Below are positions 1,863 to 18,893 of a DNA stretch of 50,459 nt, one piece after another. The position numbers and the translations under genes were made by a program. The notes below the pieces were generated by a model. The model did not search any database, was not told where the DNA came from, and worked only from the letters and a program-made list of their open reading frames with translations. Where the stretch lies: the NCBI GenBank assembly GCA_026986375.1, contig JALSOQ010000007.1, positions 1-50,459 on the forward strand, in the 5' to 3' direction. The stretch is from Archaeoglobaceae archaeon. Its GTDB lineage: Archaea; Halobacteriota; Archaeoglobi; Archaeoglobales; Archaeoglobaceae. Numbering within the stretch: the stretch's first letter is position 1; every line of letters begins with the position of its first letter.

Positions 1863-4800
1863 ATGCCCAAAAGGGAGGACATAAAGAAGATCATGGTCAT
1901 AGGTTCCGGCCCGATAGTTATAGGGCAGGCCGCGGAGTTCGATTACTCCGGTAGTCAGGCTTGCAAGGCTTTGAAGGAGGAAGGATACGAGGTAGTTTTG
2001 GTGAACTCGAATCCCGCAACTATAATGACAGATCCGGAGATGGCGGATCGAATCTACATAGAGCCCCTCACCGCGGAGGTGGTCGCGAAGATAGTAGAGA
2101 GGGAAACTCCAGACGCTTTACTTCCAACTTTGGGCGGTCAGACCGCTCTTAACATAGCTGTGCAGTTGGGTGAGATGGGCGTTCTCGACGAATACGGAGT
2201 CGAGTTGATAGGGGCGAATCTGGATGCTATAAAGAAGGCCGAGGATAGGGAGCTTTTCAAGAAGACGATGCAGGAGATAGGTTTGGACGTTCCCAAGAGC
2301 GACGTTGCGAGCGACGTTGAGGAGGCGCTGGCGATAGCCGACGAAATAGGTTATCCGGTCGTCGTCAGGCCTGCTTTCACTTTGGGCGGGACTGGAGGAG
2401 GAATAGCATACAACAGGAGAGAGCTTAGAGAGATAGCGGAGAAGGGGCTTGAGATGTCGATGATTCATCAAGTTCTCATAGAGGAGGGTGTCATAGGGTG
2501 GAAGGAGTTCGAGTTAGAAGTGATGAGGGATCTCGCAGACAACGTCGTGATAATCTGTTCGATAGAGAACTTCGACCCGATGGGAGTCCATACGGGAGAC
2601 AGCATAACCGTCGCTCCCGCTCAAACCCTTACCGACTGGGAGTATCAGAGGTTGAGGGACGCTGCCATTAAGATAATTCGAGCCATCGGAGTCGAAACCG
2701 GAGGGAGCAACATACAGTTTGCCGTCCATCCGGAATCCGAGAGGTTCGTGGCGATAGAGATGAATCCCAGAGTCAGCAGATCTTCAGCGTTAGCGTCGAA
2801 GGCGACGGGATTCCCGATAGCGAAAATAGCGGCGAAGCTTGCCGTCGGCTATACTCTCGATGAGATTCCGAACGACATAACGAAGGAGACTCCGGCGAGC
2901 TTCGAGCCTACGATAGACTACGTAGTTGTGAAGATTCCTCGATTCGCGTTCGACAAGTTCCCGACGGCGGATCAAACTCTGGGCAGTCAGATGAAGAGCG
3001 TCGGAGAGGTCATGGCGATAGGAAGGACTTTCGAGGAAGCTTTACAGAAAGCCCTGAGGAGCTTGGAGATAGGGAGATACGGACTGGGTTGCGACGGCAA
3101 GGATAGGAATCCGACGAGGGAGGAGATCATTCAGAAACTCAGAACTCCGAATGCCGATAGGGTTTTCTACATAAGATACGCTTTGAAGGCCGGTTTCAGC
3201 GTGGATGAGATCTACGAGCTCACGAAGATCGACAGGTGGTTCATAAGGAAGATAAAGAACATCGTCGATATGGAGGAACAGCTTAAGACTTGGGCTGAAA
3301 AGACGAAATACGACATATGGAAGGTTCCGGATGAGGTCATAAGGAAGGCCAAGAGGCTCGGATTTTCGGATTACCAGCTCGCCTACATATTCAGAACAAA
3401 CGAGAGGGAAGTTAGGAAGAGGAGGAAGTCCGGCATAATAGCTGTTTACAAGATGGTCGATACGTGTGCGGCGGAGTTCGAAGCTAAGACGCCCTACTAC
3501 TACTCAACCTACGAGCAGGAGAACGATGCCATTCCCACGAAGAGGAAGAAGGTGATGATATTGGGTAGCGGGCCCAACAGAATCGGGCAGGGAATAGAGT
3601 TCGATTACTGTTGCTGTCATGCCGTTTTCAGCCTGAAGGAGGAGGGATACGAAACTATCATGGTCAACTGCAATCCCGAGACTGTTTCGACGGATTACGA
3701 CACTTCTGACAGGCTGTTCTTCGAGCCGATAACGCATGAGGATGTTATGAACGTTTACGAGAACGAAAAGCCGGAAGGGGTCATAGTCCAGTTCGGCGGG
3801 CAAACTCCTCTGAACATAGCCAAGGATCTTGAGGAATCCGGAGCGAAGATACTGGGAACTTCCGTCGAATCGATAGATTTCGCGGAAGACAGGGAAAGGT
3901 TTTCGGAACTTCTGAGGAAGTTGGGAATTCCGCAGCCCGAGCACGGAATAGCGCACAGCGTCGAGGAGGCGAAGGAAGTTGCTAAGAGGATAGGGTATCC
4001 CGTTTTGGTTAGACCGAGCTACGTTTTGGGCGGGAGGGCGATGGAGATAGTTTACGACGAGGAGGAGCTCGAAAGATACGTTAGAGAGGCGGTGGAGGTA
4101 AGTCCGGACAAACCGATTCTCATAGACAAGTTCTTGGAGGATGCCATAGAGGCGGAAGTAGATGCCCTATGCGATGGAGAGGAGGTGGTTATAGGAGGAA
4201 TTCTCGAACACATAGAGGAGGCTGGAGTCCACAGCGGCGATTCAGCATGCGTTCTACCGCCCATATCCCTGTCCAAAGAGGTTATAGAGAAGATAATAGA
4301 ATATACGAGGAAGATAGCCCTCGCTTTGAAAGTTGTAGGGCTCATAAACATCCAGTTCGCGATAAAGGACGGAGTTGTTTACGTGCTCGAAGCGAATCCG
4401 AGAGCGTCGAGAACGGTTCCTTTCATAAGCAAGGCTACGGGCATTCCTCTCGCAAAGATAGCCGCTAAGCTGATGATGGGTAAGAAGCTGAGAGAGTTGG
4501 GCATAAAAGAGAGGCTCAATCTGAAGCACGTTGCAGTTAAGGAGGCCGTGTTCCCGTTCGTCAAACTGCCAGGGGTAGATCCCGTTCTCGGCCCGGAGAT
4601 GAAGTCCACTGGCGAAGTGATGGGTATAGACTACGACTTCGGTTTGGCTTACTACAAAGCCCAACTGGCGGCGGGGATGAGGTTGCCGACGGAAGGAACG
4701 GTCTTCATAAGCGTTAAGGATAGGGACAAGAACGAGAAACTCGTTGAGATAGCCAGAAAGTTGAAGGAGCTTGGGTTCAGGATAGTCGCCACATCCGGAA

Positions 4801-16356: not shown

Positions 16357-16383
16357 TGATAGGAATAATAATTAGGAGAGGTG

Positions 16384-17826
16384 ATGATCGTGGGGAGTGG
16401 AGTTGAGAAGATACCTACAGGTATCCCGGGGTTCGATGAAGTTCTTAGAGGTGGTTTGAGGAAGGGCTGGACATACCTAATTAAAGGAACTCCGGGAAGT
16501 GGAAAAACGATTTTCGGAGTTCAGTTTTTGATGGAAGGAGTAAGGAGGGGGGAAAAGTGCGTATACATTTCCTTCGACGAAACGGCCGAAGAAATAGCTC
16601 TACAGGCAGAAGGGTTTGGATGGAACCTCGATGGGATACAAGTGGTCGATAGAGTTAGGGATATGGACATCTCGGAAGGTAACATAATATTCTACGATTT
16701 TGACAACACAGCTGAAATAATAAGCTTCGTTGATTCTATAACTAAAATTAAGGAGCTTAAAAAAGTAGATAGGGTTTTCGTTGATGGTATTGGTGCTTTG
16801 AGGGATCTGGCCAAGGATCCTACTATTTCGAGAAGAATCCTGCTTTCTATAACGTGCTTCCTAAACTCCATAAAGGCCACAACGTTGATGTCGTGCGACA
16901 TGACTGCAGAAGTCGGAAGGGACATAGTAAGCTACGTAACGAGCGGAGAGTTCGTTCTGGAGAGAATCGAGAGGAAAGACGGTATCGTTAGAAGGATTCT
17001 TCACGTTCTGAAGTATAGGGGAGGAGACGCCTACTTAGGAAGACACTACTTCGAAATCACACCTAAAGGAATAGTCGTCTATCCCATAATTCCGGTGATA
17101 GGTGAGATTAAGACCAAAAGCAGAAGGTTGCTGTCGACGGGGAACAGGGAGCTCGATATGCTCCTCGGCGGTGGAATTTATGAGGGTTCGAGCGTCGTGA
17201 TAGCCGGAAAAAGTGGAGTGGGTAAGACCAGCATCTGCCTTCAAATCCTGAAGGGATGCGATCTTAGGGGAGAGACCGGTATCCTCTACACGTTCGACGA
17301 AACCGAGGATCAAATCTTGCACAGGCTTAAGGTTCTGTTCAACCACGAACCGAAGAACATCTTAATAAAGGAGATAACGACCGATGTCAGCTTAGGGGAG
17401 TTCTACAACATGGTGATGAACGACGTTAGAACGATTAGGCCGAAGGTCGTAGTTATAGATCCGGTAAACTACCTATCCCACGTCGCTTTGACTTCCGAAG
17501 AGTTGATAAGAACGCTCAAATTGATTAGATCTCAACTCAGTAGTTTAGGAATCGTTTTCATATGCGTGGACGAGGTCGTAGAGGCGATGAACGTCTTCAG
17601 ACTTACCGGTTTGGGTATAAGTCCTTATGCGGATTATCTGATATCTGGAAGATTCGTCGAGTTGGAAGGGGAGCTCGTCAAAACGATAGCGGTAATAAAG
17701 AATAGATTCGGAGACCACGAGAGATCTTTGAGAATTTTGGACATAGAAGAGGGGATAGGCCTGAAGATAAGCGAACCCCTCAAGGAATACACAGGCATAA
17801 TGAAGGGCGTGATGATGAAGAGATAG
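16384..17826 (+). CDS. Double KaiC-domain RecA-like ATPase
   Basis: A 480-aa protein made of two tandem RecA/KaiC domains. The first has Walker A GTPGSGKT near residues 35-42, with YISFDETAEE as the KaiC-type catalytic acid region. The second has GKSGVGKT near residues 275-282, with YTFDETEDQI. Both domains begin with the IPTGIPGFDEVLRGG / STGNRELDMLLGGG type lid. Archaeal two-domain KaiC-like proteins are common in euryarchaea, where some act in signalling or motility control; no clock is implied. AGGAGAGGTG at 16374-16383 is the Shine-Dalgarno for the ATG at 16384. A GTG one codon earlier overlaps that site and is less likely. The C-terminus lacks an evident KaiC autophosphorylation segment. 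Confidence 0.88.
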   Translation: MIVGSGVEKIPTGIPGFDEVLRGGLRKGWTYLIKGTPGSGKTIFGVQFLMEGVRRGEKCVYISFDETAEEIALQAEGFGWNLDGIQVVDRVRDMDISEGNIIFYDFDNTAEIISFVDSITKIKELKKVDRVFVDGIGALRDLAKDPTISRRILLSITCFLNSIKATTLMSCDMTAEVGRDIVSYVTSGEFVLERIERKDGIVRRILHVLKYRGGDAYLGRHYFEITPKGIVVYPIIPVIGEIKTKSRRLLSTGNRELDMLLGGGIYEGSSVVIAGKSGVGKTSICLQILKGCDLRGETGILYTFDETEDQILHRLKVLFNHEPKNILIKEITTDVSLGEFYNMVMNDVRTIRPKVVVIDPVNYLSHVALTSEELIRTLKLIRSQLSSLGIVFICVDEVVEAMNVFRLTGLGISPYADYLISGRFVELEGELVKTIAVIKNRFGDHERSLRILDIEEGIGLKISEPLKEYTGIMKGVMMKR

Positions 17827-17857
17827 TTTAATTAACATTCATGTCGAAATCGTTTGG

Positions 17858-17917
17858 GCGATGAAGATTGGCGCGGGTGCTGAAGGGTGATGACCGACTG
17901 ACGGTCCGAGCCGTCGT
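17858..17917 (+). ncRNA. Probable C/D box sRNA 1 (atypical 3' half)
   Basis: C-like box GCGATGA (17858-17864), a 15-base candidate guide, D' box CTGA (17880-17883), AGG spacer and C' box GTGATGA (17887-17893). The D box is unclear. A CTGA lies only 4 bases after C', and a variant CCGA lies at 17906-17909 after a 12-base gap. A GACGG/CCGTC hairpin spans 17900-17915. The D'-spacer-C' core CTGAAGGGTGATGA is identical to that of the next RNA, which supports a real guide RNA. The methylation target was not assigned. Confidence 0.55.
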
Positions 17918-17954
17918 AAACCTTTTCATCAGGGTGAGAATTAGTAGTGAAAGG

Positions 17955-18008
17955 AGATGATGAGTTCAGCCTTGACTGAAGGGTGATGAACTCTGGCAGT
18001 CTGATCCT
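17955..18008 (+). ncRNA. C/D box sRNA 2 (complete box set)
   Basis: All four boxes are in order and correctly spaced: C ATGATGA (17957-17963), 12-base guide GTTCAGCCTTGA, D' CTGA (17976-17979), AGG, C' GTGATGA (17983-17989), 11-base guide ACTCTGGCAGT, D CTGA (18001-18004), then a TCCTTTTTT tail. Such RNAs direct fibrillarin, with L7Ae and Nop5, to 2'-O-methylate rRNA or tRNA at the base paired five positions upstream of each D box. For the second guide the target would read ACTGCCAGAGT with the methyl on the fifth base. The rRNA is not in this window, so targets are unassigned. Confidence 0.8.
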
Positions 18009-18014
18009 TTTTTA
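18005..18014 (+). terminator. T-rich terminator of the C/D RNA pair
   Basis: TCCTTTTTTA directly after the D box is a typical archaeal oligo-T termination signal. It lies 25 bases before the citG-like ATG. Confidence 0.45.
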
Positions 18015-18038: not shown

Positions 18039-18893
18039 ATGTTCGAGACTCCCGAAGATGTGGCAACGGCCGGAGTCCTATCTCTGCTTTTGGAGGTTTC
18101 CGGAAACCCCAAAGCCGGAAACGTCGATAGAACGCACGATTTCTCCGATATGAGGTTCGAGCACTTCTTGGCTTCCGCCTCCGCGGTGTATCCCGTATTT
18201 CTTGAGTGCGCGAAGGGAAGGCTTTCGATCGGAGAGGGAATTCTTAAGGCGGTCGAGAGGTCTAAGAGGTGGCAGAAAGGGGGGAACGTTCACTTCGGAA
18301 GCTTCATGCTTCTCGTTCCTCTCGTCAAGTGCTGGAGGGAAGATTTGAACGGAACAGTCGAAGCTCTGAGGAGGACGGATGTTAAAGATTCGTTGGCGGT
18401 GCTGAAAGCCTTCAGAATCAGCGGGGCGAGGGTTATGGACGTAAGGGATCTCAGCTTGAAGGATGATGAGACCGAGAGGTTGCTCGTCGAGAAAAACGTA
18501 AACCTATACGAGTGGCTGAAGCTTTCTCCGAAGGAGAACGTCGTGGCGAGGGAGCCAATAGAAGGATATCCGAGGAGCAAGGAGGGAATGAAAGTTTTAA
18601 TAAAGAGTTTTTCCGAACACGGGGACGTCAACATGGCTATAGTCCACGCGTTCCATTACCTCCTCTCGAAGCACTTGGATCCCCTCGTAATAGCCAAGCA
18701 TGGAATGGAAGTGGCGGAGTTCGTTAGAAGTAAGGCTGAGGAAGTTTTGAGGGTTTTTGAATCCAGATTCGACTTAGAGGTCTTGAGGAGGTTCGATGAA
18801 GAGTTGGTATCGAAGGGAATAAATCCCGGAAGCATAGCGGATTTGACCGCCTCATCTATCTTCTTGGCTTTAAAGGAGGGGTGGAGGTTTTGA
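18039..18893 (+). CDS. CitG-like (triphosphoribosyl-dephospho-CoA synthase family) protein
   Basis: A 284-aa helical protein of the CitG/MdcB family. It has the hallmark GNPKAGNVDRTHDF near residues 23-36 and a GGNVHFGSFMLLVPL segment with the conserved N-x-x-x-G-x-x-L-L. The bacterial enzymes join dephospho-CoA and ATP to make the citrate/malonate lyase prosthetic group precursor, but no such lyase is visible here. The archaeal homologues sit beside a DUF447 protein, as in this window. From memory, the same pair occurs in the tetrahydromethanopterin-type C1 gene clusters of methylotrophic bacteria, so a ribosyl-transfer step in pterin cofactor synthesis is a reasonable but unproven idea. Confidence 0.8.
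   Translation: MFETPEDVATAGVLSLLLEVSGNPKAGNVDRTHDFSDMRFEHFLASASAVYPVFLECAKGRLSIGEGILKAVERSKRWQKGGNVHFGSFMLLVPLVKCWREDLNGTVEALRRTDVKDSLAVLKAFRISGARVMDVRDLSLKDDETERLLVEKNVNLYEWLKLSPKENVVAREPIEGYPRSKEGMKVLIKSFSEHGDVNMAIVHAFHYLLSKHLDPLVIAKHGMEVAEFVRSKAEEVLRVFESRFDLEVLRRFDEELVSKGINPGSIADLTASSIFLALKEGWRF

Follow-up and report, generated by a model that had tools for sequence, protein, structure and literature searches.

Two predicted C/D box guide RNAs in tandem in an Archaeoglobaceae genome, and covariation at the 3b.3n position of the C/D k-turn

Introduction

The window analyzed here, a stretch of 50,459 nucleotides of contig JALSOQ010000007.1 from an Archaeoglobaceae archaeon (1.46 Mb, 30-contig assembly), has a gap between a KaiC-family gene (16381-17826, PF06745) and a CitG gene (18039-18893, PF01874). 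An earlier note, made from the letters alone, placed two RNAs between a KaiC-type and a CitG-like gene, and the gene and domain coordinates bear this out: two C/D box RNAs occupy the gap, both on the + strand, and are called sRNA1 and sRNA2 below. Their resemblance, and the imperfect boxes of the first, raise the question of whether they are a duplicated guide RNA with one copy drifting away, or two genes that happen to be neighbors. We conclude that they are very probably two double-guide C/D box sRNA genes, independent of each other and arranged in tandem, which would guide 16S rRNA methylation and are not copies of each other, and that sRNA1 is probably functional in spite of its boxes.

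Two C/D box RNAs in one intergenic gap

The second RNA, sRNA2 (17953-18007, + strand), matches the Rfam family RF00095 with 50.2 bits (E 1.3e-7), above the gathering cut-off of 45. Its closing stem AAGGA/TCCTT (17951-17955/18005-18009) encloses a C box ATGATGA (17957-17963), a 12-nt D' guide GTTCAGCCTTGA (17964-17975), a D' box CTGA followed by the spacer AGG and the C' box GTGATGA (17976-17989), an 11-nt D guide ACTCTGGCAGT (17990-18000), and a D box CTGA (18001-18004). All boxes were read directly, and the C and D boxes also from the orthologue alignment. The four (ATGATGA/CTGA/GTGATGA/CTGA) stand at the expected spacing. The four boxes, the guides of 12 and 11 nt, and the terminal oligo-T that had been described for this RNA are all present, the last as a run of T6 at 18008-18013 (+ strand).

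The first RNA, sRNA1 (17857-17912, + strand), has a closing stem GGC/GCC (17857-17859/17910-17912), a C box ATGAAGA (17861-17867), a 12-nt D' guide TTGGCGCGGGTG (17868-17879), a directly readable core of D' box CTGA, spacer AGG, and C' box GTGATGA (17880-17893), a 12-nt D guide CCGACTGACGGT (17894-17905), and a D box CCGA (17906-17909). The consensus of the outer boxes is RTGATGA and CTGA; they were placed as given here because every orthologue reads ATGATGA and CTGA at these positions. The weak C box of the earlier note is thus a box with one base off, and the D box that had seemed unclear is identified by the alignment as CCGA. The spacing is again that of a four-box RNA, with perfect D' and C' boxes, and the single deviations of the C and D boxes both fall on the 3b.3n pair of the k-turn, which keeps its tandem G.A pairs and its 4b:4n G-C pair. 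In Rfam, sRNA1 stays below every cut-off, with sub-threshold matches to several archaeal C/D families, the best being sR51 (27.6 bits).

Sequence models of each RNA were searched over 55 genomes of the archaeal family. Each RNA was found in its own genome, in three others of the same genus (G001, G002, and G003), and in four genomes of two other genera (G014, G015, G024, and G025), i.e., in seven other genomes. G004, of the same genus but with an assembly that is 81% complete, gave no match.

A TATA-like element TTTAATTAA (17827-17835, + strand) precedes the inferred 5' end of sRNA1 by about 25 nt, and the congeners carry other TATA-like elements at a similar place. It is likely to be the promoter of sRNA1, and perhaps of both RNAs. 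Before sRNA2, G001 and G002 have a TATA-like CCTTTAAATTC where the window has CCTTTTCATCA (17921-17931, + strand), which we infer, by comparison with the flanks of L004 and L005, to be a degenerate counterpart. The T6 run is a probable transcription terminator for sRNA2. Since it occurs only after sRNA2, and the second TATA-like element is degenerate, co-transcription of the two RNAs from the first promoter is plausible.

The genome encodes a fibrillarin (C10:135364-135996, E 1.2e-70). Each RNA would be expected to bind L7Ae, forming a terminal k-turn from C and D and an internal k-loop from C' and D', and each sRNP would recruit Nop5 and fibrillarin and so direct 2'-O-methylation to the 16S nucleotide paired five bases upstream of the D' or D box. 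The two are C/D box guide sRNAs of the ordinary kind, unannotated before. The earlier note had assigned them to this class, and Rfam, conservation, and complementarity to the 16S rRNA under the N+5 rule support the assignment. Box anatomy, orthology, pairing, conservation, and the fibrillarin gene are direct observations; transcription, RNP assembly, and methylation are inferred.

Predicted targets in the 16S rRNA

The guides were matched to the 16S and 23S rRNA of their own genome with the N+5 rule; positions are in its own numbering, with E. coli numbers taken from an alignment. The D' guide of sRNA1 forms 9 contiguous Watson-Crick pairs in 16S 1080-1091, which points to C1084 (E. coli ~C1114), and its D guide forms 10 contiguous pairs, including 2 G-U, in 1031-1042, which points to U1035 (E. 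coli ~U1065). For sRNA2, the D' guide forms 10 contiguous Watson-Crick pairs in 874-885, with G878 as the predicted target (E. coli ~G902, helix 27), and the D guide 9 in 13-23, with C17 (E. coli ~22 at the 5' end, a number that is approximate because of an alignment gap there). The earlier note had proposed a comparison of the guides with 16S, 23S, and tRNA; the complementarity found is to the 16S, with 9-10 bp and a Watson-Crick pair at N+5. The best rRNA match of all four guides is in the 16S. Targets in the 23S were rejected, as each guide scores lower there, and those in tRNAs were not adopted, as a few scores of 8-9.5 are inconsistent, some lying on the wrong strand and some arising only with G-U pairs.

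Shuffled guides reach the 16S score in a fraction of 0.28 (D') and 0.083 (D) of cases for sRNA1 and 0.016 (D') and 0.051 (D) for sRNA2, so that single matches are modest evidence. The match of the GC-rich D' guide of sRNA1, equaled by 28% of its shuffles, is non-significant alone. Conservation of the pairing across genomes adds weight to the targets, since it is kept across three genera for three of the four guides. For the D guide of sRNA1 and the D' guide of sRNA2, the same 16S site ranks first in all six genomes with a full 16S. The D' guide of sRNA1 also pairs at the same site in 6/6, tied for first in three, with a G-U replacement in one genus. The orthologues in three genera keep 9-11 pairs of the sRNA1 D guide, and the core TTCAGCCTTG of the sRNA2 D' guide is identical in 8 genomes. 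The D guide of sRNA2 is conserved in its own genus only.

We therefore predict 2'-O-methylation at 16S C1084, U1035, G878, and C17. sRNA1 would act on the first two, 49 nt apart, and sRNA2 on G878 in helix 27 and on C17 at the 5' end. We take positions ~17 and 878 to be both near the central pseudoknot. In other archaea, helix 27 is a hotspot of methylation (PMC4644070). A search of the literature for archaeal sRNAs directed at G902 returned nothing specific.

Paired changes at the 3b.3n position

C-box position 5 (3b) and D-box position 2 (3n) lie opposite each other in the C/D k-turn, where the usual combination is U.U (PMC5689011). In sRNA1 the combination is A.C, and its boxes are otherwise unchanged. 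Our survey covered seven genomes and 165 sRNAs whose D'-C' cores are perfect (loci L106-L284), with the boxes picked without use of the 3b and 3n positions. The pair is U.U in 134 of them and departs from it in 31. In the genome of the window, both bases are changed in 6 sRNAs, the C box only in 3, the D box only in 1, and neither in 20 (Fisher p 9e-4); in the other six genomes, the corresponding numbers are 7, 12, 2, and 114 (p 1.1e-5). These counts are not fully independent, owing to shared ancestry, which is partly corrected by counting each state once per family in the 58 guide families: 10, 10, 2, and 52, in the same order (p 1.2e-5). U.U is replaced by G.C, A.C, A.A, or C.C. The commonest double change, G.C, is a true pair, and another sRNA family retains A.C in three species. 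G.U and A.U are likely intermediates: they are common without a change of the D box, while the reverse is rare, which suggests that the C box changes first. We think it fairly likely that the C/D consensus of this archaeal family is loose at 3b.3n, where U.U would repeatedly have given way to paired changes, apparently in the C box first, with the D box following.

This bears on how such genes are detected. A k-turn filter demanding U in the U.U pair has been described (PMC7994747), and sRNA1, with its A.C, would not pass a filter that asks for a 3b.3n pair with two U, or with one at the least. Since 31 of the 165 sRNAs have a pair other than U.U, with correlated changes, the criterion belongs to the predictors and does not define archaeal C/D sRNAs. 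If the paired changes are as we describe them, standard predictors requiring RTGATGA and CTGA would miss or mis-score many guides, as was the case for sRNA1, and allowing for 3b.3n covariation would be a simple fix for annotation filters. The covarying letters of 165 sRNAs in seven genomes also lend the 3b.3n pair of real C/D RNAs support from evolution.

Could sRNA1 instead be a decaying pseudogene in its own species, with C/D boxes that have drifted and no longer allow assembly, leaving sRNA2 as the sole active gene? Two consensus positions are indeed changed in this species only, being canonical in all orthologues, and no Rfam family reaches its cut-off. However, the changes affect a single k-turn pair, in both its bases, the guides and internal boxes being intact, and many sRNA families show paired changes of this kind, with A.C conserved in three species in another family. 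Moreover, k-turns with other 3b.3n pairs, where tested, still fold with L7Ae (PMC4382518, PMC5689011); Kt-7 with G-C at 3b.3n, for example, cannot be folded by metal ions alone, whereas with L7Ae it folds (PMC4382518). We regard decay as very unlikely. The covariation, the retention of A.C elsewhere, and the folding of other pairs with L7Ae together suggest that sRNA1 is most likely still functional, an apparently broken C/D sRNA that would have undergone matched changes in two facing letters of its k-turn.

Two neighboring genes rather than recent copies

The identical 14-base stretch CTGAAGGGTGATGA reported for both RNAs is there, exactly, at 17880-17893 and 17976-17989. Of its bases, 11 are box consensus and 3 the spacer AGG, and the genome has a third copy (C13:109887-109900), in an sRNA with unrelated guides. 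D'-spacer-C' cores CTGANNNRTGATGA number 33 in this 1.46-Mb genome, against 0 for a reversed control, and 30 of them are flanked by correctly spaced C and D boxes.

The earlier note saw in the two RNAs a duplicated, diverging pair, and hence recent duplication of a guide RNA; the guides would since have diverged. The common orientation of the pair, its 96-nt register, and 70% identity over 37 nt, including the 14-mer, would fit such an origin, but the identity is that of the box consensus and the guides are unrelated (3/12 matches between the D' guides). In the congeners the cores differ, and the spacer is not common to sRNA1 and sRNA2. Recent duplicates should resemble each other beyond consensus motifs and be closer to each other than to their orthologues, and neither is the case. 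The orthologues are, moreover, unlinked and already distinct in the two other genera. They lie on different contigs in G015 and G024, at 2,181,995 and 710,815 of one contig in G014 (about 1.47 Mb apart), and at 4,627 and 631,728 of C1 in G025 (about 0.63 Mb apart; all in record coordinates). A duplication would thus have to predate three genera, and a recent one is extremely improbable. In the four genomes of the window's genus, sRNA1 and sRNA2 are adjacent, with gaps of ~35-45 nt, and the pair precedes the CitG gene in the window's genome, G001, and G002, but not in G003. As the two are unlinked in the other genera, the pair is, on these comparisons, a genus-level neighborhood of two separate genes, neighbors in their own genus only.

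The first copy was also thought to be acquiring a new structure, a GACGG/CCGTC hairpin at its 3' end. This hairpin does exist, with 5 bp, and overlaps both the D guide and the D box, but a role as an on/off switch of the D guide or as a transcription terminator is scarcely credible, since it is absent from the sRNA1 orthologues, the folding of its region is not better than that of shuffled sequences (z +0.3 and +0.8), and no long T-run follows. The box changes of sRNA1 are instead best read as paired changes at one k-turn position, recurring in many sRNAs of the archaeal family.

Other C/D box sRNAs and cores

A third C/D box sRNA lies at 703-758 of the window (minus strand), with C box ATGAAGA, D box CTGA, and the guides TACGAGGGCGAG and ATCCACCCGTTT. 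It has orthologues in all six other surveyed genomes; at position 5 of its C box, three genomes have U and the other four A or G. At G000 C10:53007-53045 (L116, L117), one guide is common to two D'-C' cores (53007-53020 and 53032-53045), as it would be in an sRNA with three consecutive guide units; similar close core pairs are found at G001 C41:7645/7674, G002 C21:192839/192868, and G003 C22:42263/42289. Within the CitG gene, TTGAAGGATGATGA (window 18456-18469) resembles a D'-C' core with two mismatches.

Comparison with known systems

Both RNAs are like known archaeal C/D box sRNAs (RF00095 snoPyro_CD and the sR families) in length, in their four boxes and two guides of ~12 nt, in the N+5 target rule and the 16S targets, in the short closing stem, and in their tandem arrangement, clusters of such genes having been described (PMC7994747). 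They enlarge an under-annotated class by two members whose targets are predicted; their guide pairs were not matched here to a named sRNA family. Pyrococcus sR51 (RF01305) shares the stretch CTGAAGGGTGATG with sRNA1, and was rejected as its orthologue: the guides are unrelated, so the similarity is one of boxes.

Most double guides target sites within 100 nt of each other (PMC7994747), and the two predicted sites of sRNA1 are also less than 100 nt apart. Those of sRNA2 (~17 and 878) are distant in sequence, and may resemble the sites of the double guides proposed to act as rRNA folding chaperones (PMC4644070), from which sRNA2 differs in that its 5'-end guide is unconserved outside the genus.

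Unlike the usual archaeal C/D sRNA, sRNA1 has a terminal k-turn with a pair other than U.U at 3b.3n. The closest parallel is the k-turn of U4 snRNA, which has mostly G-C or G-U at this position (PMC4382518). Although U4 is another RNA with another function, and sRNA1 itself has A.C, the U4 k-turn belongs to the L7Ae/15.5K class and departs from U.U as do the G.C and G.U states of the archaeal family.
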